64,000 nucleotides of DNA from Gemmatimonadota bacterium (GTDB taxonomy: Bacteria; Gemmatimonadota; Gemmatimonadetes; Gemmatimonadales; Gemmatimonadaceae), in NCBI GenBank assembly GCA_003155795.1, contig PMEM01000013.1, forward strand, positions 75,033 to 139,032. Reading direction: 5' to 3'. The translations under genes and the position numbers were made by a program. The notes under the pieces were generated by a model. That model had not been told where the DNA came from, did no database searches, and saw only the letters and a program-made list of their open reading frames with translations. How positions within the stretch are numbered: the first letter of the stretch is position 1; the number at the start of each line of letters is the position of its first letter. Positions 36,127-62,798 of this stretch are shown here, piece after piece.

Positions 36127-37530
36127 ATGGAATCGCTTGATCTTCTCCCCGCCGACATTTGGTCGCGTATTCTCGAGCGAGCTCGTCGAGAGTTGCCCGA
36201 GCAGACCTTCAAGACCTGGCTGGAGCCTACGGAGGCTCTCGAGGTCATTGGCGATACCCTGATCGTTGGTACACCTGATCGATTCGCGGCAGACTGGAAC
36301 GAGTCAAAACACGCGACCATGCTCAGTGCATTCGCGCCGGTGGCTCTTGGCCAGCCGCTTAAAATCACATTCCGGGTCAACGAAGAACGACAGGCTCGTC
36401 CACAGATGGACTTCTTTGTCGCGCCAAAGCCCGAGGAAATCCCCACATCACTAAGACCCCAACGCGCCATTGAGGCGCCACTTAACGACAGATACACGTT
36501 CGAGCAGTTTGTCATCGGTAAGTCCAACGAGCTCGCTGCTGCCGCCGCACACGCCATCGCCGAGGCGCCTGGGAAGATTTACAACCCGTTCTTCATCTAT
36601 GGCGATACGGGACTCGGCAAGACACACCTGATGCAGGCGATCGGTCATGCCATCTACGAGCGTGACCCGTCGACCCGGATAATGTTCGTTGGAACCGAGC
36701 AGTTCACCAACGAGATGGTCAATGCCATTCAGAACAGGACCAATGCAGAATTCCGGCGCCGGTACAGAGAGACGGATCTGCTCCTCATCGATGACGTCCA
36801 CTTCCTGAAGGGCAAGGAAGGAACCCAGGAAGAGTTCTTCCACACCTTCAACGCTCTCTACGAGGCTGGTCGCCAGATCATTCTCACAAGCGATCGGCCA
36901 CCATCCGACATCGCTGGGCTCGAGGCTCGCCTCGTGAGCCGCTTTCAGTGGGGAATGGTGGCCGACATTGAGCTACCCGATTTCGAGCATCGCATCGCTA
37001 TTCTGCAACAGAAGTCTCACCAGGATGATCTGGAAACCACCATTCCAGAGGACGTCATCCGCTTCATTGCGGAACACGTGCGCTCAAGCGTGCGGGAGCT
37101 TGAAGGGTCCATAATCAAGCTCCTCGCATATGCGTCACTTCGCCACAAGCCTGTGACCATTGAGGTGGCCCGTGAGGCCCTCCGGGACAAGCTGAAGGCA
37201 TTGGAAGACGGTCAACGAGACACGGCACCGCTTGGGCTGAACGTCGGTGTCATCCAGACAGCTGTGGCCAAGGAATGGGGCACTACAGTCGACGGCTTGC
37301 GCTCGAAGACAAGAACCAAAGCCCTGACTGTCCCAAGACAAATCGCAATGTACCTGACGCGAGACCTGCTCGGGATGCAACTTGTCGAGATCGGAGCAGC
37401 ATTCGGTGGCCGTGACCACTCAACGGTGATCCACAGCCTTGACAGGGTGACCCAGATGATTCAAAGCAACCCACAAACACAAACCAGAATAGCGCAACTG
37501 AGAGCTATGTTGGCATCTCTCAGGATGTGA
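36127..37530 (+). CDS. dnaA: chromosomal replication initiator DnaA
   Basis: 467-residue initiator that binds DnaA boxes and melts oriC. Domain I (LLPADIWSRILERARREL, TFKTWLEPTE) is followed by a short linker. The AAA+ domain III begins RYTFEQFVIGKSN, with Walker A GDTGLGKTHLMQAIG and Walker B DLLLIDDVHFLKGKEGTQEE. Domain IV has the DNA-binding signature GAAFGGRDHSTVIHSLDRV near the C-terminus. Start ATG 36127 gives MESLDLLPADIWSRI, the usual N-terminus. It lies divergent from rpmH and upstream of dnaN. Confidence 0.98.
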   Translation: MESLDLLPADIWSRILERARRELPEQTFKTWLEPTEALEVIGDTLIVGTPDRFAADWNESKHATMLSAFAPVALGQPLKITFRVNEERQARPQMDFFVAPKPEEIPTSLRPQRAIEAPLNDRYTFEQFVIGKSNELAAAAAHAIAEAPGKIYNPFFIYGDTGLGKTHLMQAIGHAIYERDPSTRIMFVGTEQFTNEMVNAIQNRTNAEFRRRYRETDLLLIDDVHFLKGKEGTQEEFFHTFNALYEAGRQIILTSDRPPSDIAGLEARLVSRFQWGMVADIELPDFEHRIAILQQKSHQDDLETTIPEDVIRFIAEHVRSSVRELEGSIIKLLAYASLRHKPVTIEVAREALRDKLKALEDGQRDTAPLGLNVGVIQTAVAKEWGTTVDGLRSKTRTKALTVPRQIAMYLTRDLLGMQLVEIGAAFGGRDHSTVIHSLDRVTQMIQSNPQTQTRIAQLRAMLASLRM

Positions 37531-37831
37531 ACAAAATGAGGAGCAGTTTCCCACCATTTCCCACGCTCAGAACCATTTACCGACAGTCCAGATGTTGGCA
37601 GCTGTTGAAATCAGATGTTCTCCACGATCCTTCCACAGTGCCAAATCACTGGAAGTCCGTGTGAAATCGATACTTACAGAGCTTCTCCGCTTATAAACAT
37701 TACCCTACTACGACTGCTAGATTTCTATATCATATAGTCTTTAATAGAACACGGAGATCTTCCACACGAAGACCTCCCAATACAAGCAAGATTGCACGAC
37801 TTCTACTCTCCTCGGACGTCAGGGAATACGG
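37531..37831. other. dnaA-dnaN spacer, candidate oriC
   Basis: 301 bp without a gene, between dnaA and dnaN. It contains several degenerate DnaA-box-like TCCAC motifs: TTTCCCACC and TTTCCCACG near 37549-37570, TTCTCCACG near 37618, CTTCCACA near 37630 and near 37754. A box-like TTATAAACA at 37691 is followed by a DnaA-trio-like tract CTACTACGACTGCTA (37705-37719) and an AT-rich stretch to about 37745. This order (box, trio, AT-rich) resembles the unwinding module of bacterial origins. No perfect DnaA box is present, so the call is tentative. Confidence 0.5.
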
Positions 37832-38944
37832 ATGCGCTTTACGATCTCTCGTGAGAAGCTTCAGGAAGGCCTCAATGCCGTCTCGGCGAGCATTCCCACG
37901 AAGACCACTCTCCCGGTCCTGGCGAATATCCTCGTCGAGACCACTGACCGCGGCATCAGGCTGTCGGGAACTGATCTTGATATAGCCGTGAGTACCGAAG
38001 TCACTGCGGATGTCGAAGCACCTGGTGCTGTGACAATTCCGGCTAAGAAACTCAGTGAACTCGCGCGCGAACTTCCACCAGCTCCCGTGAAGATCGCAGC
38101 ACTTGGTGAACAGCGCATTACGCTCGAGTGCGGCAGATCCAAATTCAAGTTGCTTGGCTTGCCACGCGATGAATTCCCTACGTTCCCAGTCGTTCGATTC
38201 AACGAGAGTTGGAGGATCAAGTCCGGCGATCTTCAGAAGCTCATCGGCGCCACCGTGTTTGCTGTATCGACAGAGGAAAGCAGACCAATTCTGAATGGTG
38301 TGTTGTGGGAGCTTCGTCCGGAGCAGATGCGGATGGTTGCGACCAACGGACACCGACTCGCAAAGATGGAAATTCCGATCGTTGCGACTAACGCGCCGGC
38401 AAGTGATCTGATTGTGCCACCGAAAGCACTCGAGCAAGTACGTCGGCTATTCCCTGCTGAAGAAGAACTTGAGGTCGCTCGTGGTGAGAACCACATCGGT
38501 TTCCGATCACCGCTCACCGCTGTCTACACGCGACTGATCGAAGGGCCTTATCCGAACTATGACCAGGTAATCCCGCGCGACAACGACAAGTACGCAATCG
38601 CGGACAAGACAGCGTTGATCAGTGCGCTCAAGAGAATGTCTGTCATCGCGAGTGATCAAACGCACCGCATTCGGATGGCCTTCAACTCGGGAATGCTGAA
38701 GTTCAGTGTGACGACGCCAGATCTCGGTGAAGCTCAGGACGAGCTGCCGATTCGATACAACGGGGACCCGCTCGAAATCGGGTTCAACGCCAGCTACTTG
38801 CTGGAGATACTGCGGTACATGCCAACCGATGAAGTCAGGCTCACATTCAAGGCGCCAGAGCGCGCCGCCACGATGGAGCCAGAAGGCTGGACGGATTCGG
38901 CGACTTACATGTGCCTGGTGATGCCACTCCGCCTGATGGACTAG
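37832..38944 (+). CDS. dnaN: DNA polymerase III beta subunit (sliding clamp)
   Basis: 370-residue clamp that tethers polymerase III to DNA. It shows the three repeated clamp domains: an N-terminal MRFTISREKLQEGLNAVSA, mid RPILNGVLWEL and ATNGHRLAKME, and the C-terminal hydrophobic-pocket end YMCLVMPLRLMD. The last residues match the usual PMRL ending (here PLRL). An AGGGAAT ribosome-binding site precedes the ATG. The convergent lipoprotein gene follows, sharing a small stem-loop at the two stop codons. Confidence 0.98.
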   Translation: MRFTISREKLQEGLNAVSASIPTKTTLPVLANILVETTDRGIRLSGTDLDIAVSTEVTADVEAPGAVTIPAKKLSELARELPPAPVKIAALGEQRITLECGRSKFKLLGLPRDEFPTFPVVRFNESWRIKSGDLQKLIGATVFAVSTEESRPILNGVLWELRPEQMRMVATNGHRLAKMEIPIVATNAPASDLIVPPKALEQVRRLFPAEEELEVARGENHIGFRSPLTAVYTRLIEGPYPNYDQVIPRDNDKYAIADKTALISALKRMSVIASDQTHRIRMAFNSGMLKFSVTTPDLGEAQDELPIRYNGDPLEIGFNASYLLEILRYMPTDEVRLTFKAPERAATMEPEGWTDSATYMCLVMPLRLMD

Positions 38945-39757: not shown

Positions 39758-39775
39758 CGTACCTTGGAGAGAGAG

Positions 39776-40166
39776 GTGCCACCGGCCTATAAGCCGGGTT
39801 CTGTACACCAGATCTTTCGATCTGGTGTGACGATCATTTCTCTCGACGTGCAGTCGCCTGCACGTTCCAGCAGCCTACCCGCGGTGTCTTTGTCAGGGTG
39901 GACGCCCCTCACCGCCTATTTGGCCTTGCTCCCACTGGGGTTTGCCGAGCCACGTGTGTTACCACACGTGCGGTGAGCTCTTACCTCACCATTTCACCCT
40001 TACCAGTGGTTGCCCACTGGCGGTTTGCTTTCTGTTGCACTTTCCGTCACTCAGCGTTTGACCGCCTCGTGCCCAGGCGTTACCTGGCAGTGTGTCCATG
40101 GAGCCCGGACTTTCCTCGGAATAGTACCACGAGGATACTATTTCGCGACCGTCCAGCCGGTGGCAC
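39776..40166 (-). ncRNA. rnpB: RNase P RNA, bacterial class A
   Basis: On the minus strand this 391-nt region holds the conserved RNase P RNA blocks: GAGGAAAGTCCGGGCTCC near the 5' end, GACGGAAAGTGCAACAGAAA and GGTAAGGGTGAAA in the core, and ACAGAACCCGGCTTAT near the 3' end. The ends GTGCCACCGGC (5') and GCCGGTGGCAC (3') are exactly complementary and form helix P1, which sets the borders used here. It forms the catalytic part of RNase P together with rnpA at 35415. A plausible promoter upstream is TTGCTT, 16 bp, TAGATT. Confidence 0.96.
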
Positions 40167-55552: not shown

Positions 55553-56473
55553 TCACTCGAGCGCGCCCATCATTTCCAGGAGCCTGTTCAGGTCCTCTGT
55601 AGAGTAGAACTGGATGCGCAGTTCACCCTTGTCCCGCTTCTTCCGAATCAGGGAGACATCGGTTTGGAATCGGCTTCTGAGGAGATCTTCAACATGCCTG
55701 ACTTCAGGCGGTCGGGTGTCTTCCTTCCGTGGGCGACCACGGTGTGGCTTTTCATGCCGAGGTGCATCCTGTCGAACACGCTCCTCGATGGTTCGGACCG
55801 AGAGACCATGTTCGACCGCCTCGGTTGCCAGCTTGATTGCCAGGGCATGGTCTTCCAGTGCCAGGAGCGGCCTCGCGTGTCCAAGGCTGAGGGCCCCGGT
55901 CTCGAGCATTTTCCGAACTTCAGCGGGTAGCTGGAGGACGCGCTGGAGGTTTGCAACAGTTGATCGATCCTTGCCGACGAGGTCTGCGATCTCGTTTTGA
56001 GAGAGGTCGAATTCGCTTGCGAGTCTTGTGTATCCTTCGGCCTCCTCGATCGGATTGAGATCGGCGCGCTGCAGGTTCTCGATCAACGCGAGCGTGAGCA
56101 TCGTGCGATCGTCGTAGTCGCGAACTATCGTCGGGATTGTTGTCCAGCCGAGCAATTTCGCTGCACGGAGACGGCGCTCTCCAGCGACGAGCTCGTACCC
56201 ATCCTTGGTGCTACGGACAGAGATAGGCTGAAGCAGGCCGGCGGTTCGAATGCTGTCTGCGAGCTCCTTCAGCTCGTCTGTGCTGAACTCCTTTCTGGGC
56301 TGGTAGTGGTTTGGCGCAATCTCGGAGATGGGAATGTCCCGGAGCACTGTGCGAGATTCGGCTGGAGCATTGCCCGGTTCGTCGGGCTTCGGCGAGGTTG
56401 ACGTTGTTCTTCTCTCGCCGAGCAGTGCGTCGAGTCCGCGCCCGAGCCGACGAGGCGTTTTGTCGGCGCTCAC
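55553..56473 (-). CDS. parB: chromosome partitioning protein ParB
   Basis: 306-residue CTP-dependent DNA clamp that binds parS. It has the N-terminal RRLGRGLDALLGERR, the nuclease-fold box DIPISEIAPNHYQPRKEF, YELVAGERRLRAAKLLGW and a helix-turn-helix SQNEIADLVGKDRSTVANLQ. The C-terminus EMMGALE follows a dimer region FYSTEDLNRLLEMM. GTG 56473 overlaps the parA stop by GTGA. Located about 18 kb from dnaA, within the expected origin-proximal zone. Confidence 0.97.
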   Translation of the reverse strand: MSADKTPRRLGRGLDALLGERRTTSTSPKPDEPGNAPAESRTVLRDIPISEIAPNHYQPRKEFSTDELKELADSIRTAGLLQPISVRSTKDGYELVAGERRLRAAKLLGWTTIPTIVRDYDDRTMLTLALIENLQRADLNPIEEAEGYTRLASEFDLSQNEIADLVGKDRSTVANLQRVLQLPAEVRKMLETGALSLGHARPLLALEDHALAIKLATEAVEHGLSVRTIEERVRQDAPRHEKPHRGRPRKEDTRPPEVRHVEDLLRSRFQTDVSLIRKKRDKGELRIQFYSTEDLNRLLEMMGALE

Positions 56474-57258
56474 GGCGCAGCCTGTTCGTTGGTAAGCGCC
56501 GCGGTGCGTTGAATCAATTCGTGGGCGACTCCCATGTACGCTTTCGCACCAACTGAGGCCACATCATAGAGAATGATTGGCTTTCCGAAGCTTGGCGCTT
56601 CGGCGAGCCTCACATTTCTTGGGATGACCGTGTCAAAGACCTGGTTGCCGAAGTATTCCCGAGCTTCGCTTGCAACCTGTCGGCTCAGATTGAGTCGAGC
56701 GTCGTACATGGTGAGGAGGACGCCATCGATGGCGAGCGAGGGATTCACCCCTTGCTGGACGCGGTGGACCGTATTCAGGAGCTGGGAGAGACCTTCGAGG
56801 GCGTAGTACTCGCACTGCAGCGGGATAATCAATGCATCTGCAGCGGCGAGCATGTTGATTGTGATGAGGCCGAGCGAGGGAGGGCAATCGATGAGGATGA
56901 AGTCGTATTCGTCCCGAATCGGGGCCAGTGCGGAGCGCATTCGCTGTTCGCGTTGGGGCAGATCTACCAATTCGATCTCTGCGCCCGCGAGATCGGGAGT
57001 TGCCGGGAGGACATCCAGGAGGCGGAAGTGTTCTCCGACTTTCCTGGCTTCGCGGATCGTTGCCTCGTTCAGTAGCACCTCGTAGATCGTCTTTCCGATC
57101 TCCCGGACACCAACGCCGCTCGTCGCATTTCCTTGGGGGTCGCCGTCGATCAGGAGAGTTCGCTGTTCAGCGGCAGACAAGGAGGCTGCGAGGTTTACGG
57201 CGGTAGTCGTTTTTCCGACGCCACCCTTCTGGTTTGCGACAGCTATGACTCTAGACAC
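56470..57258 (-). CDS. parA: chromosome partitioning ATPase ParA (Soj)
   Basis: 262-residue Walker-type ATPase. The deviant Walker A is NQKGGVGKTTTAVNLAASL, followed by LLIDGDPQGNATSGVGV and LIDCPPSLGLITINMLAAA. ParA drives origin segregation with ParB. The start is GTG 57258. The 224-bp gap upstream contains a terminator of the SIMPL gene and a repeated TGTGGAACGTG motif, but no evident promoter consensus. Confidence 0.97.
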   Translation of the reverse strand: MSRVIAVANQKGGVGKTTTAVNLAASLSAAEQRTLLIDGDPQGNATSGVGVREIGKTIYEVLLNEATIREARKVGEHFRLLDVLPATPDLAGAEIELVDLPQREQRMRSALAPIRDEYDFILIDCPPSLGLITINMLAAADALIIPLQCEYYALEGLSQLLNTVHRVQQGVNPSLAIDGVLLTMYDARLNLSRQVASEAREYFGNQVFDTVIPRNVRLAEAPSFGKPIILYDVASVGAKAYMGVAHELIQRTAALTNEQAAP

Positions 57259-57385
57259 TTACCGTTGTTTTTGCGGACGAGGGACAGGTCGAGGAATCTA
57301 AGCCCGTATCCACTGGATCGCATCATCGTGGGCGGGGAAAAGGATGAAAACTTCCTTGATAGCGCCAGTGGATCCTTCGAAGCAC

Positions 57386-57420
57386 AAAAAAGGGAGCAAC
57401 CGTGGAGTTGCCCCTCTTTT
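57386..57420 (-). terminator. intrinsic terminator downstream of the SIMPL gene
   Basis: The plus-strand sequence AAAAAAGGGAGCAAC, then CGTGGA, then GTTGCCCCTCTTTT forms a stem-loop with A/T runs at both sides. On the minus strand the T-run TTTTTT follows the stem, so it ends the SIMPL-gene transcript; it may also work on the plus strand. Confidence 0.75.
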
Positions 57421-57459
57421 GTGGAACGTGAAAAAGAAATTCTGTGGAACGTGGAAAAA
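57420..57459. repeat. direct repeat TGTGGAACGTG(G)AAAAA near parA
   Basis: Two copies, TGTGGAACGTGAAAAA (57420-57435) and TGTGGAACGTGGAAAAA (57443-57459), lie between the terminator and the end of the SIMPL gene. ACGTGGAA and ACGTGAAA match half of the known parS consensus, but neither copy is a full inverted parS. Confidence 0.4.
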
Positions 57460-57482
57460 CCCTATTGTTGCCCTTTGCTGCT

Positions 57483-58211
57483 CTATCTGCCTGCGATGAA
57501 CTGCCAGCTGCCGGAGACCGTCATAGTGACCGTCTGCTGCCCGGCATTGATCTGGGTTTCCGGCGCTGACGCGGACATTGCCCTTACCGAGTACATCGGG
57601 CGAGGTGGGAGTGCTGCGTTTCCGCCGCCGACATCGAGTCTCATCAACGGGCCCAACGACCCACCAGCTGCTCTCGCTGCGATATCAGCTTGGGCGCGGG
57701 CCTTCGCTACCGCATCTGATAGTGCCTTGTCGCGCGCAGCGTCGGTATTGCTGGCGTAGAAGTCCAACGATGATATGAGATTGGATCCACTGGATAGTGC
57801 GGTATCCAATACCTTACCGACCTGCTTGATGTCATGCACGTCAGCCAGGATCGTGTTGGTGACGGTATACCCCGTCAATACCGGTGCTGCGTTCTGCGAA
57901 TATCGATACTCCGGGCTCACGCTGTAGCCCGTGGTAGATAGCTGTTCGTTAGTCATACCTAACGCACGTAAGGAAGCCAGAACAGCACTTTGTTTCCTGG
58001 CATTGTCCGCTGCGGCGGCTTCAGCGGTCGTTGCCTTCGTTTGGACCGCGATACTCACGGTCGCGCGGTCGGGCGTGTACTTGGCTTCTGCGGTAGCTGA
58101 GCTGGAGATGGCCGCGATTGGTGCATGCCCCATCGGCTGTGCAGGCATTCCCTGTGCGCCGAGCGCTGCAGCTGGGAGAAGCGCAGTGGCGATAGCCTGA
58201 CGAAAGAACAT
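57483..58211 (-). CDS. SIMPL domain (DUF541) exported protein
   Basis: 242-residue protein with a signal peptide (MFFRQAIATALLPAAALGAQ) and a SIMPL/DUF541 domain. The N-terminal strand ISSSATAEAKYTPDRATVSI is typical, as are YSVSPEYRYSQNAAPVLTGY, TLADV-like region TNTILADVHDIKQVGKVLD and a C-terminal TVTMTVSGSWQFI. The family resembles oxidative-stress defence protein YggE; its exact role is unknown. A GGAG ribosome-binding site precedes ATG 58211. The gap 58212-58366 upstream holds no gene and no recognisable signal apart from that site. Confidence 0.9.
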   Translation of the reverse strand: MFFRQAIATALLPAAALGAQGMPAQPMGHAPIAAISSSATAEAKYTPDRATVSIAVQTKATTAEAAAADNARKQSAVLASLRALGMTNEQLSTTGYSVSPEYRYSQNAAPVLTGYTVTNTILADVHDIKQVGKVLDTALSSGSNLISSLDFYASNTDAARDKALSDAVAKARAQADIAARAAGGSLGPLMRLDVGGGNAALPPRPMYSVRAMSASAPETQINAGQQTVTMTVSGSWQFIAGR

Positions 58212-58366
58212 GGGAGCTCCATGAGGGTTGTGGTTTTGGTTCGGCTAGAGTGCTGATCGAATGTCGTCGGGACGGATTCCAGGGCCCCACTCGCAATCGT
58301 GAATGAGCCTCATTTCAGCACCCGGCTACGATTCCCTTCGGCAGCAATTGTGCCGGTGACGACGCG

Positions 58367-59170
58367 CTAGCTCTCTACGAGATCGTAATCATGAATGCGC
58401 GACAGATCCATACCTGTCGTTCCCCTCTCTCTCGACTCGATGAACATCGACTTGAATTTTGCGTCGAAGACGATCTCGTTCGCCTTGTACGATGTACGCG
58501 AGTGCACAACCTGCGCGAATGTATCATCGTTCCCGGATAGCAATACAAGAAATTCGGCTTCGCGTTCGATGAGATCTTCCGGAGTGCAGTTGAGCAGCGG
58601 ACTTGTCTCGTCGATTGGATGAACGACGGTCCAACTCAGCGCGAAGAACGTGACCTTGTCAAATTCGAGCGGTAGTGAAGTGAACTCGCGTACACGCTCC
58701 CCACTCGGTCGACGTTCGATGCGACTGTACATGATCTGCACCGACACTTCGATGAGCTGGTCGCTCCGTTCATTCGCACAGCGAAACATGAAGCCGCGGA
58801 TACCACGGTAGGGTGCGATCAACGCACGCTTACTGTAAACGATCGCCGCGTTCGGTCGGGAGAAACGCGCGAAGACAAGTCCTGTTGCAAGTGCCGCGCT
58901 CAGCAAGCCGACAAACGACTCGGCTGTGAGCAGAATATTGGCGGCCATTCCCGACGGCACGATGTTACCGTAGCCAATCGTCCCGAATGTCTCGACACTG
59001 AAGAAATACGCGCGGAAGTAATCACTGAAGAACGCAGAATGACCAGTGAACCCGGGACCGATCAGAGAGCCACGCCCACAAGCGAGATACGCAAATGCAA
59101 ACAACGCATTTACCAACACAAAGAACGTGGCGACAAGAAAAAGGAATCTGCCCCAACCCATTCCCAGCAA
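58367..59170 (-). CDS. inward-rectifier (KirBac-like) potassium channel, start codon unclear
   Basis: Potassium channel of the Kir type. It has an outer helix (FLFLVATFFVLVNALFAFAY), pore with selectivity filter TIGYGNIVPSG, an inner helix (AESFVGLLSAALATGLVFA) and the cytoplasmic Kir immunoglobulin-like domain (MFRCANERSDQLIEVSVQIM, LSWTVVHPIDETSPL). The listed TTG start at 59170 gives 267 residues and cuts off the conserved slide-helix region. In the same frame upstream lies NRDGTFNVERAGTRG and TFAPYHALLGMGWGRFL, clearly Kir sequence. That frame is open to a TGA at 59369-59371 without any ATG, GTG or TTG. See finding on a possible frameshift. Confidence 0.85.
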   Translation of the reverse strand: MLGMGWGRFLFLVATFFVLVNALFAFAYLACGRGSLIGPGFTGHSAFFSDYFRAYFFSVETFGTIGYGNIVPSGMAANILLTAESFVGLLSAALATGLVFARFSRPNAAIVYSKRALIAPYRGIRGFMFRCANERSDQLIEVSVQIMYSRIERRPSGERVREFTSLPLEFDKVTFFALSWTVVHPIDETSPLLNCTPEDLIEREAEFLVLLSGNDDTFAQVVHSRTSYKANEIVFDAKFKSMFIESRERGTTGMDLSRIHDYDLVES

Positions 59171-59393
59171 CGCGTGATACGGCGCGAACGTCTGCCGGCC
59201 TCGTGTCCCGGCACGTTCAACATTGAACGTGCCGTCACGATTCAGTAGCCTCTGTCGACTATCTACCGCGATTCGGGGGCCGAACCCCAGATTGCGGGCA
59301 GCGTCCGGATCCGTTACCGGCTTGTTGATTCTCGGCTCAGGCCCTGCAGGTTGGTCAGTGATTGGCTCTCATCTCCCGCAGATTGCAGTATGT

Positions 59394-59678
59394 CTAATCA
59401 GCAACAGCGACCTTGATTCCACCTACGGTACCGGACACCAGGTTGTAGATCATGGCTCCGATGAAACCACCGATGTAGCCAAATACCCCGTACATGATTG
59501 GGAAGAGAATGATCATGAGGCCGCGACTCATGGACGGCAGTCCGGCGGATGCCGGAATGAACGATGAAAGCAGGAAAAAGCATATCGCAAAGAAAATGCC
59601 CAGAAGAGCATAAGTAGCACCTATTACCAACGCGAACTGGCCCGGCTCGATTCTCGATATGCTCCGAATGCTCGACAT
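59394..59678 (-). CDS. small two-helix membrane protein, DUF3566-like
   Basis: 94-residue membrane protein. The N-terminal RSISRIEPGQFALVIGATYA leads into a first helix (ALLGIFFAICFFLLSSF), then a second glycine-rich helix GVFGYIGGFIGAMIYNLVSG and a final strand GGIKVAVAD. The arrangement is like DUF3566 transmembrane proteins; no function known. ATG 59678 has a GGAG ribosome-binding site 8 bp upstream. It lies between the Kir channel and two other small genes on the same strand. Confidence 0.7.
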   Translation of the reverse strand: MSSIRSISRIEPGQFALVIGATYALLGIFFAICFFLLSSFIPASAGLPSMSRGLMIILFPIMYGVFGYIGGFIGAMIYNLVSGTVGGIKVAVAD

Positions 59679-59754
59679 GTTTGCGGCTCCGTTTATGTGT
59701 GAATGACACCTCAGGGGAATTGCCAGAACATCAGCACCAGTACTACTCCGCGTC

Positions 59755-60063
59755 CTACGTCAGCGATAGAAAGCCAAACGTGACACCAACACTTATCACT
59801 ACCACTATCACCAGCAACACAGCCAGCATTCGCCTGCGAGTATTTCTGACGGCATTCCAGACTGGCTCGTCCAGGTAGAACATTCCCGGACTCGCCTCAC
59901 GAATTACCTCGTGTCGTCTGAGCCGCCGCAATGCGATTCCTTCGCCAACTCCGATATCTGCCAGCCGCCGCGCACTTGCCGGGGACGTGACACCAACGTC
60001 CCGGAATCGGCCGACAATATGTCGCTCTTTTGCAAGGATAACGGCAGCAGCTCCCGCGCCCAT
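59755..60063 (-). CDS. small membrane-anchored protein, unknown function
   Basis: 102-residue protein not assigned to a family. The N-terminal 70 residues (ILAKERHIVGRFRDVGVTSP, RRLADIGVGEGIALRRLRRH, GMFYLDEPVWNAVRNTRRR) look like a small helical or winged-helix domain. A C-terminal helix MLAVLLVIVVVISVGVTFGF anchors it, so the domain faces the cytoplasm. A strong GGGAGGG ribosome-binding site precedes ATG 60063. Its start lies 15 bp after the stop of the PH-like gene. Confidence 0.7.
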   Translation of the reverse strand: MGAGAAAVILAKERHIVGRFRDVGVTSPASARRLADIGVGEGIALRRLRRHEVIREASPGMFYLDEPVWNAVRNTRRRMLAVLLVIVVVISVGVTFGFLSLT

Positions 60064-60078
60064 TGAACCCTCCCCATC

Positions 60079-60444
60079 TCAAGTGAAGGATGACGGTATG
60101 GCCGACATGAGTTTGTCGACTTCCGCTTGTGGGTGTGCAACCTCAACAACAAGGTGATCGTACGACTCGTGATCCAGCGAGATAACTATCGTGTTGTCGG
60201 TATCGTGCACGTCGTAGAAAACGCGACGGCCGTGCTGATAGAATGTGCCTGCAGTTATCAACCCGGGTATCTGTGTGCCGGGCATCCGGAATCCGTGCCA
60301 CCAACCGCGCGCGGCTTCTCTGTCAATCTTCGCGCCCGTGATGTGTGCCAGAGGTACTTCGATTCGACCCCTGAGCGACCAGAACTTGTCCATTCCCTCA
60401 ACTTCAAAGACGGCATTCGCGCCGCTAATCGATACGCTGACCAA
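60079..60444 (-). CDS. small bacterial PH-domain-like protein
   Basis: 121-residue soluble protein. The strand pattern (VSVSISGANAVFEVEGMDKF, LRGRIEVPLAHITGAKIDRE, TFYQHGRRVFYDVHDTDNTI, VISLDHESYDHLVVEVAHP followed by a C-terminal helix PQAEVDKLMSAI) fits bacterial PH domains (bPH type). The proposed start is TTG 60444, with GGAG 6 bp upstream. It is first of a group of three small genes down to 59394. Function unknown; the fold assignment is by pattern. Confidence 0.65.
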   Translation of the reverse strand: MVSVSISGANAVFEVEGMDKFWSLRGRIEVPLAHITGAKIDREAARGWWHGFRMPGTQIPGLITAGTFYQHGRRVFYDVHDTDNTIVISLDHESYDHLVVEVAHPQAEVDKLMSAIPSSFT

Positions 60445-60494
60445 GTGGAGCTCCGTGCTTTGCGAAGCGGAAGAAAATACGACGATCCGGAATC

Positions 60495-60516
60495 AAAAGG
60501 AACAATCATTGTTCCC
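60495..60516 (-). terminator. intrinsic terminator of mnmG
   Basis: GGAACAAT and ATTGTTCC form a tight stem with AAAA at the plus-strand left side, that is TTTT after the stem on the minus strand, 10-30 bp beyond the mnmG stop. Confidence 0.65.
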
Positions 60517-60526
60517 TGACCGCGAT

Positions 60527-62449
60527 CTAGGTCCTGGCGGTGCGGCGGTGTCGCCGTTCGACTTCGATGACCAGATTCTGAATATCGTTTGGGCTGACCC
60601 CGGGTATGCGGGACACCTGAGCGAGGGACCGAGGGCGGAGCGCACCGAGCTTATGGCGCGCCTCGAATGTGAGTGACGCCATGTTGGCGTAGTCCAAATC
60701 TTCCGGCAACGCGAACTCGCCCATGCGCTTGAGTTTGTCTGCCTGGGTCCGTTCACGCTCGAAGTAGCCAGCATACTTGATCTCAAGCTCTGTCGATATC
60801 AGCGCGTCAGGGTCGAGGTGCTCGCCCACACCAACTGCGGCGAACAAGGCGGCGAGCGAGACATTCTGTCGCTTGGCCACCTCGGCCACTTTTACCGAGT
60901 GAGTCAAACACTTACTATCGCTCTCGGTAAGCAGTCGTGCCGCCTGCTCCGGTCGGATACTTGTGCGCTCAGCAAGCGAGCGGATTTCCTTGTCGGCGGC
61001 AAAGCGGTGTTCGACGACATCATTTTCCCGTTCACTGTAAATGCCGAGCCCTAGGGCGAGTGGAGCCAGGCGCTCAATCGCGTTGTCCTGTCGAACTGTG
61101 AGGCGAAACTCTGAGCGGGAGGTGAACAGACGGTATGGCTCATCAACGCCTCGCGTGACGAGATCGTCGATCAGAACTCCGATATACGATGTCTGGCGGC
61201 CAAGTACGATTGGTGGGCGCCCGAGAGCAGCGAGTCCAGCGTTCAGGCCGGCTACAACTCCCTGTCCAGCGGCCTCTTCATAGCCGGTGGTGCCGTTGAT
61301 CTGTCCGGCAAAGTAGAGCCCGTGGACGCTCTTGACCTGCAGTGATATGTCGAGCTGCGTCGGCGGATAGTAGTCGTATTCTATCGCGTAGCCGGAGCGT
61401 GTCATCCGTGCGTTTTCGAGTCCACGGACACTGTGGAGGATTTCGACCTGGACTTCTGCTGGCAGCGACGTCGACAGACCGTTTACGTAGAGCTCGCTCG
61501 TGTCGTGCCCCTCCGGTTCCAGGAAGATCTGGTGACGTTGAGCATTCGGGAATCGAAGGATCTTGTCTTCGACGGAAGGACAGTAGCGCGGACCACGTGC
61601 GGAGATCGCGCCGCCGTACATCGCCGAGCGGCCAATGTTGTCGGCGATTATCTGTTTGCCAGGTGCTTCGAGGTAGGTAATCCAGCATGGCAGCTGCTCA
61701 GGATGACGCGTCACTCCCGCGTTCAGCCGCGGCTCAGGCCAGAAGTGGGACCAGGAATAGTCGAACTGATCGATTTCGCTCTCCTGGAGCTGCAGGTGCG
61801 AGAAATCCACCGACCTTCCGTCGATGCGTGGCGGGGTTCCTGTCTTGAACCGCTCGACCACAAGCCCTGCACGCTCGAGTTGCTCGGCGAGATGGGTGGT
61901 CGCAGCCTCACCTGCGCGACCCCCGGACAGGTTCAGGTCTGTTCCGATGTGGATGCGACCACGGAGAAAGGTGCCGGCGGTAATGACGACACAGCGTGCT
62001 CCGAAGCGGCGACCTTCGAGTGTTTCGGCGCCGAGGACGGTGCCGCCGGCCTTGTCCATTATAAGGCGAGCGACAGTTCCCTGGATGGTCTGAAGGGCCG
62101 GGAACTCCTCAATCAGATGGCGGGCGGCTCTCCTGTACAAACCTCGGTCGCATTGCGCTCGGGGCGACCACACCGCAGGGCCTTTGCTCCTGTTTAGCAT
62201 CCTGAACTGGAGCATAGCCATGTCCGTGGCGCGGCCCATGATACCGCCAAGCGCGTCCACCTCTCGTACGACGGTGCCTTTGGCGACGCCACCGATTGCG
62301 GGATTGCAGGACATCTGGCCAATGGTTTCGAGGGCGCTCGTGATCAGGGCGACAGATGCGCCGAGCCTGGCGGACGCAACGGCAGCCTCGGTGCCGGCAT
62401 GGCCGCCACCGATGACGATGACGTCAAAAGAAGACTCGAAGTTTGGCAT
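60527..62449 (-). CDS. mnmG: tRNA U34 modification enzyme MnmG (GidA)
   Basis: 640-residue FAD-dependent partner of MnmE in wobble-uridine modification. The FAD-binding N-terminus is SFDVIVIGGGHAGTEAAVAS. Family signatures RMLNRSKGPAVWSPRAQCDR, GTFLRGRIHIG, TGTPPRIDGRSVDF and GYEEAAGQGVVAGLNAGLAA are all present. The start ATG 62449 (MPNFESSFDVIVIGGG) fits; the frame extends to 62515 without similarity. It lies 3 kb upstream of parA on the same strand, though interrupted by the small genes, and not next to mnmE as in some genomes. Confidence 0.97.
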   Translation of the reverse strand: MPNFESSFDVIVIGGGHAGTEAAVASARLGASVALITSALETIGQMSCNPAIGGVAKGTVVREVDALGGIMGRATDMAMLQFRMLNRSKGPAVWSPRAQCDRGLYRRAARHLIEEFPALQTIQGTVARLIMDKAGGTVLGAETLEGRRFGARCVVITAGTFLRGRIHIGTDLNLSGGRAGEAATTHLAEQLERAGLVVERFKTGTPPRIDGRSVDFSHLQLQESEIDQFDYSWSHFWPEPRLNAGVTRHPEQLPCWITYLEAPGKQIIADNIGRSAMYGGAISARGPRYCPSVEDKILRFPNAQRHQIFLEPEGHDTSELYVNGLSTSLPAEVQVEILHSVRGLENARMTRSGYAIEYDYYPPTQLDISLQVKSVHGLYFAGQINGTTGYEEAAGQGVVAGLNAGLAALGRPPIVLGRQTSYIGVLIDDLVTRGVDEPYRLFTSRSEFRLTVRQDNAIERLAPLALGLGIYSERENDVVEHRFAADKEIRSLAERTSIRPEQAARLLTESDSKCLTHSVKVAEVAKRQNVSLAALFAAVGVGEHLDPDALISTELEIKYAGYFERERTQADKLKRMGEFALPEDLDYANMASLTFEARHKLGALRPRSLAQVSRIPGVSPNDIQNLVIEVERRHRRTART

Positions 62450-62513
62450 ATGGGGGGCTTCTAAATGTAGAGCACGACGCCATTCACGGCTGGACTCGGG
62501 GTAATTTTGGGGC

Positions 62514-62798
62514 ATGCCAATACGAGCGGCTCACGACCGTCCGACAGTCTTCATCCGACGCGAGGCTTTTGAGCGTGCAGGGCTGGAACGTCAATCCATC
62601 GACGCCCGCTTCAACCTTACGGATGAGGAATTCGTCGTTGAGGGGAACCTGGTAGCTATCGGACCACTTCCATCAGATGACACGTTGAGCGATCTCGTGA
62701 TCGAACTGGAGACAATTGGGCTCCGGTACTTCGACGATTTCTTTGAGTTGAGCGGCAACTGGCCAACCTGGCTCAATTTGTTCGTTACGTCGGTCTAA
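62514..62798 (+). CDS. small protein of unknown function
   Basis: 94-residue soluble protein with no recognised family. It is acidic in its second half: RREAFERAGLERQSIDARF, NLTDEEFVVEGNLVAIGPLP, DTLSDLVIELETIGLRYFDD and NWPTWLNLFVTSV. Start ATG 62514 has GGGG 3-6 bp upstream. It is divergent from mnmG with 64 bp between starts. It may be co-transcribed with the lipoprotein gene that follows. Coding potential rests on length, codon use and its position. Confidence 0.6.
   Translation: MPIRAAHDRPTVFIRREAFERAGLERQSIDARFNLTDEEFVVEGNLVAIGPLPSDDTLSDLVIELETIGLRYFDDFFELSGNWPTWLNLFVTSV

Follow-up and report, generated by a model that had tools for sequence, protein, structure and literature searches.

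The KirBac inward-rectifier potassium channel gene on the minus strand of the window, by which we mean the whole 64,000-nucleotide stretch of the Gemmatimonadaceae assembly GCA_003155795.1 that was analysed, very probably begins translation at a near-cognate codon, the ATC at 59362, which is matched by ATC or ATT in three sister species and thus appears conserved across the genus. As proposed, the gene occupies 58367..59362 and encodes 331 amino acids followed by a stop codon. Sequence comparison would place it among genes with AUH starts: no fitting canonical start was found in frame in any of the four species, or in any frame nearby in two of the four, and an aligned AUH codon with an upstream motif was present in all of them. 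The aligned codon encodes isoleucine, and a need for that residue alone could account for the codon's conservation; if the isoleucine were conserved for itself, no better-fitting start would appear to remain.

The channel and its reading frame

Inspection of the window found the KirBac frame open on the minus strand from 59368 to 58367 and closed upstream by a TGA (59369..59371), a stop that lies just upstream of the ATC/ATT codon in all four species. Between this TGA and the TTG at 59170 (59168..59170) there is no in-frame ATG, GTG or TTG, as an earlier note on this DNA had stated. Counted along the frame, the ATC (59362-59360) is codon 2 and this TTG, the earliest canonical codon, is codon 66; the start-to-stop ORF listed in this frame runs from the TTG for 267 aa. 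The same note had put two slide-helix stretches upstream of the TTG, which is accurate for NRDGTFNVERAG, wholly upstream, but not for YHALLGMGW, which contains the TTG as the first L of its LL. Because the TTG sits in YHALLGMGW, a start there would lose the NRDG region.

The predicted product is, plainly from its sequence, an ordinary KirBac3.1-like channel. Its Pfam matches are all above the curated cut-off (IRK_C 5.1e-22, Ion_trans_2 3.7e-07, IRK 1.7e-06), the selectivity filter TIGYGN is present in the translation, and the closest solved relative is KirBac3.1 (4lp8, 1.6e-61, query residues 36-325), with which the N-terminal NRDG stretch aligns from chain residue 11. The combination of a pore domain bearing a TIGYG-type filter and a cytoplasmic IRK_C domain assigns the predicted protein to the KirBac family. 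Its N-terminus, encoded by a region with no canonical start (59171..59359, minus strand) that includes LGFG and NRDGTFNVE, holds what reads as an intact slide-helix region, and the inclusion of this region in the product would depend on the proposed start.

Orthologues and the aligned near-cognate codon

The channel gene was sought in 60 genomes, the source included, and 35 had a match, among them all four species of the genus. Orthologues from the three congeneric genomes, G001, G002 and G003, are 81-83% identical to the channel; two of the four congeneric genomes are metagenome assemblies and the other two may be. In each species the frame has to be followed from the upstream stop as far as codon 64-67 to reach a canonical start: codon 64 in G001, 65 in G002 and 67 in G003, against 66 in the source. 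Near-cognate codons align across the four congeners as ATC, ATT, ATC and ATC, with the ATT belonging to G003, and they are separated from the in-frame TGA by two codons in the source and by four in the other three. The residues from the aligned codon onward are I-T-D-Q in the source, I-T-D-P in G003, and I-A-D-P in G002 and G001. Because there are only four species and G001 and G002 are close (dS about 0.22), this pattern amounts to approximately three independent lineages.

Outside the genus, the orthologues look ordinary in start codon as far as they were tested. At least one in-frame canonical codon was found upstream of LGFG in 24 of the 24 orthologues with that motif, a result that speaks to the availability of such a codon within ~60 codons and is not proof of its use, several of these loci having no Shine-Dalgarno motif. 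The check covered 26 loci, of which two were without LGFG; eight further matches had no locus.

Upstream of the channel lies a gene for a 94-aa predicted membrane protein (59394..59678, minus strand), which had no Pfam match at E 0.001. This gene aligns over its full length in G003, and only its last codons (TVGG-K-V-like) remain in G001 and G002, a pattern that points to lineage-specific loss beside a retained 3' tail. The wider neighbourhood resembles a replication origin, with dnaA, dnaN, a ParA-like gene and mnmG at 36127-38941 and 56473-62515, and with the RNase P RNA at 39774-40164 on the minus strand.

Shine-Dalgarno motif and proposed start

The proposed start codon (ATC, 59360..59362, minus strand) lies 10 nt after a Shine-Dalgarno-like GGAG (59373..59376, minus strand) within GGGAGATGA. 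The motif reads GGAG in the source and GAGG in the three congeners, with a gap of 10 nt in all four, and is only four bases long in three of the four species; by chance, 1456 of 20000 random window positions had such a motif at gap 4-12. The earlier note had suggested ATC 59362 as a possible non-canonical start, and the alignment of this codon and its motif across the genus lends weight to that suggestion. A search of the source assembly for the 16S 3' end pattern found none, and the anti-Shine-Dalgarno sequence was therefore taken from the published profile for the class Gemmatimonadetes, UCACCUCCU (PMC10783764, in part). By eye, GGGAGATGA matches AGGAGGTGA, the complement of that profile, at 7 of 9 positions, the profile being a class-level one (PMC10783764, in part). 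RNA folds of the start region, compared by eye, had no structure common to the species.

Genes with ATG as their first canonical codon had the nearest motif at gap 4-12 in 5/49, 15/75 and 5/46 cases in three sets, for which true starts were assumed and of which the third overlaps the first in gene content. No GGAG, GAGG or AGGA occurred within 25 nt upstream of 42/49, 57/75 and 39/46 ATG-first genes (contig C19, G001:C4 and G001:C2, respectively), which hints that gene starts in this lineage may be mostly Shine-Dalgarno-independent.

Two other readings of this region keep a non-canonical start. Initiation might instead use a nearby codon such as that for the valine of KPVTD (GTA, GTC, GTT and GTT in the four species), comparable to the GTC start documented for sigR. 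The valine is kept in 4/4 species, but the third base of its codon varies among them and, by eye, no GGAG, GAGG or AGGA lies within 25 nt upstream, making this choice of codon very unlikely. Also very unlikely is coupling, in which ribosomes ending the upstream gene, or an NTG AGR ... TGA mini-frame, would reinitiate at the ATC/ATT. NTGA is present in all four species (ATGA, TTGA, CTGA, CTGA), the mini-frame ends 5-11 nt after the first ATC/ATT base, and in the source, where the mini-frame ATG AGA GCC AAT CAC TGA (59355..59372, minus strand) overlaps the proposed start, the stop codon of the upstream gene is 31 nt from the ATC. Against this, the ATG of the mini-frame is species-specific, little is left of the upstream gene in G001 and G002, two species that also have no canonical mini-frame start, and TGAGG is explicable by the Shine-Dalgarno motif itself. 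Coupling would, in any case, still use the ATC/ATT as the start.

Canonical codons in other frames

The ATG at 59372-59370 that overlaps the TGA, and the GGGAG directly before it, are both present in the sequence as the earlier note described, and G003 has a TTG at the homologous place. From the ATG and the GGGAG the note had proposed a frameshift, either a real slip from ATG 59372 or a base error, that would join MEPITDQ to the channel. The comparison makes this highly improbable, as the ATG occurs in one species only and is CTG in both G001 and G002. Its frame stops after five codons, no slippery run is visible, and the GGGAG touches the ATG with zero spacing; an assembly error would require the same fault in four separate assemblies. 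In G001 and G002 the interval from -42 to +141 nt relative to the TGA held no ATG, GTG or TTG in any frame, and every frame opened in the 150 nt examined upstream was stopped by 22 nt before the TGA. Because these two species are without a canonical start in any frame, a single frameshift or readthrough from such a start cannot explain them, and more than one odd event would be needed.

Constraint on the N-terminus

Least probable of all, and extremely so, is initiation at TTG 59170, or three codons further along at the ATG that all four species share, which would make a truncated channel and would leave the upstream similarity as leftover DNA. These are the first canonical codons of the frame, and the Met of GMGW is common to 4/4 species; the exact TTG position itself is TTG in the source genome (G000) and G001 only, CTG in G002 and CTT in G003. 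Constraint on the preceding sequence was measured over the 55 codons that start at NKPV and end just ahead of the first shared Met; in three species a TTG is among the last four of them. Across the five distant species pairs, dN was 0.060-0.078 and dS 1.2-3.0 (the upper dS values approach saturation and mean no more than 'large'), giving dN/dS of about 0.02-0.06. In the same pairs 49-50 of the 55 residues were identical, and substitutions at codon positions 1, 2 and 3 numbered 4-6, 4-6 and 24-30. The close pair, G001 and G002, gave dN 0.008 and dS 0.22. Between the source and G003, over the 57 codons that precede any canonical codon in either, dN was 0.09 and dS 1.39.

Protein-level constraint is strong across the 55 codons leading up to the shared Met, and because this stretch is constrained as coding sequence, ribosomes must enter upstream of it. 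Truncation would also discard the NRDG stretch, whose alignment with KirBac3.1 begins at residue 11. The pattern named in the earlier note as telling against an upstream start, orthologues that begin at the TTG and have no NRDG region, was not found in the genus; NRDG is kept and constrained in 4/4 species.

Two further candidates were rejected. One was readthrough of the TGA: between the preceding stop (-42) and the TGA, this frame offers no ATG, GTG or TTG in G001 or G002. The other was a double frameshift that fuses the channel to the upstream gene, which would call for two shifts in each species.

Frequency of such frames in the contig

A screen of 116 conserved non-overlapping frames compared the whole 175-kb contig with stretches of G001 (200 kb), G002 (103 kb) and G003 (26 kb), following a first pass on the window alone (55 conserved frames). 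Because the comparison genomes were represented by stretches only, genes without a homologue there are missed by the screen. In 22/116 frames at least 12 conserved codons preceded the first canonical start; 14 of the 22 overlap another conserved frame over more than half of the stretch. Among the eight that do not, only KirBac had a dN/dS well under 1 (0.09/1.39), after which the lowest values were 0.55/1.32, 0.11/0.23 (DNA before dnaA) and 0.12/0.25, and the remaining stretches include DNA before dnaN and the RNase P RNA gene. The KirBac gene is the only such case found among the 116 conserved contig frames.

The same screen between G001 and G002 (190 and 101 frames), a pair too little diverged for the purpose, left 43/89 and 20/35 flagged stretches as non-overlapping. 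KirBac was among those 20, and most of the stretches had few or no third-position changes. A few are borderline at the low divergence of this pair, such as G001:C4 102866-102904, with 13 codons and changes of 1/1/5 at the three positions.

infC as a control gene

The gene for IF3, infC, offers a same-lineage control. The comparison took in 31 infC loci from the order: four belong to the genus, two of these in the source assembly, and 27 to relatives. Ten further matches were listed without loci, one of which, G000:C63, was included as L036, and G003 had no infC match. The apparent start, 8-13 codons before RVN (or RIN), was ATT, ATC or ATA in 22/31 loci and CTG in 8/31. GGAG, GAGG or AGGA preceded the near-cognate codon at gap 4-12 in 30/31, the exception being L066, which was without a motif. 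In the KirBac genus, infC reads GAGG, 8 nt, ATC-CCC.

In seven loci a canonical codon is available as well, 10-15 codons ahead of RVN, with the motif closely placed in five (ATG at gap 3 in L078, TTG at gap 2 in L033-L035, GTG at gap 2 or 1 in L069) and TTG without a fitting motif in L081 and L036. From the conservation and from precedent we infer that the near-cognate codons are the infC starts in this order. Known infC start codons are ATT in E. coli, ATC in Streptomyces and AUA in S. aureus (PMC5472188 and PMC13009471, each in part). Since infC has a near-cognate codon with a motif and most ATG genes are without one, the channel would share both start type and motif with infC.

Across the order-wide loci L061-L087, the apparent infC start type divides by family, with ATT/ATC/ATA in f1 and f3 and CTG in the nine f2 loci. 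The source assembly holds two infC genes of different types, L035 (C48) and L036 (C63). The copy on C63 resembles those of other genera and has unread bases upstream, and it may therefore be foreign to the genome bin.

Implications and comparison with known systems

In the mechanism we propose, a Shine-Dalgarno contact 10 nt upstream would select ATC 59362, the initiator tRNA would read ATC or ATT at a lowered rate, and IF3 would reject the near-cognate codon. Judged from its type, the start is probably weak and IF3-sensitive, which suggests that production of the channel may be slow and factor-controlled. Because near-cognate codons are slow and rejected by IF3, the channel level would be low and would rise as IF3 activity falls; repression by IF3 and weak output are expected here because of the precedents of infC, sigR, cvfC1 and ccpN.

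A more speculative reading, possible though somewhat doubtful, is that an exchange of the start codon for AUC/AUU has placed the channel with infC in an IF3-sensing set, with IF3-linked regulation of physiological use. If so, potassium conductance would track the state of translation initiation, as set by ribosome number, growth rate, or cold or potassium stress. Possible reasons for such a start are that a leaky channel is kept rare or that potassium flux is tied to translation capacity. A membrane-channel case that spans a genus, paired with an infC control from the same lineage, would allow a clean test of the idea that IF3 controls a small group of genes through weak starts. Start-finding rules miss or truncate genes with non-canonical starts, and here they would cut the slide-helix region from the channel. 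A limited literature search, judged from result listings, found no published report of this case.

The KirBac gene would join a small known class made up of infC, pcnB, sigR, cvfC1 and ccpN. In E. coli, as Binns and Masters are said to have reported in 2002, the chromosomal gene pcnB is limited by its AUU start. The KirBac gene would resemble pcnB in being a chromosomal gene with a start of this kind, ATC/ATT in its case; the product of pcnB is not a membrane channel. Experimentally characterised natural genes with non-canonical starts are few (PMC5472188, in part). The likeness to infC lies in the near-cognate codon and the upstream Shine-Dalgarno motif, but infC is autoregulated (PMC5472188, in part), whereas the KirBac product is a potassium channel and its start a trait of one genus among those examined. 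Beyond infC, sigR of Streptomyces resembles KirBac in having a non-canonical start that start-finding rules miss; the sigR start is GTC rather than ATC/ATT, and its repression by IF3 was measured (PMC5472188, in part), where for KirBac it is predicted.

In S. aureus, cvfC1 (AUU) and ccpN (AUA) have conserved near-cognate starts with extended Shine-Dalgarno motifs, and in poor medium these starts yield about 10% of the expression obtained with AUG (PMC13009471, in part). The KirBac gene would share with them a conserved near-cognate start and a Shine-Dalgarno motif, but the motif has four bases in 3/4 species and the case is known from sequence, in contrast to the extended motifs, ribosome data and reporters of the S. 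aureus genes (PMC13009471, in part). As a protein, the predicted channel aligns with KirBac3.1 (PDB 1xl4, 4lp8) in both its body and its NRDG-type N-terminal region, and would differ from it in carrying ~35 residues before the aligned part, compared with 10 in the solved chain.
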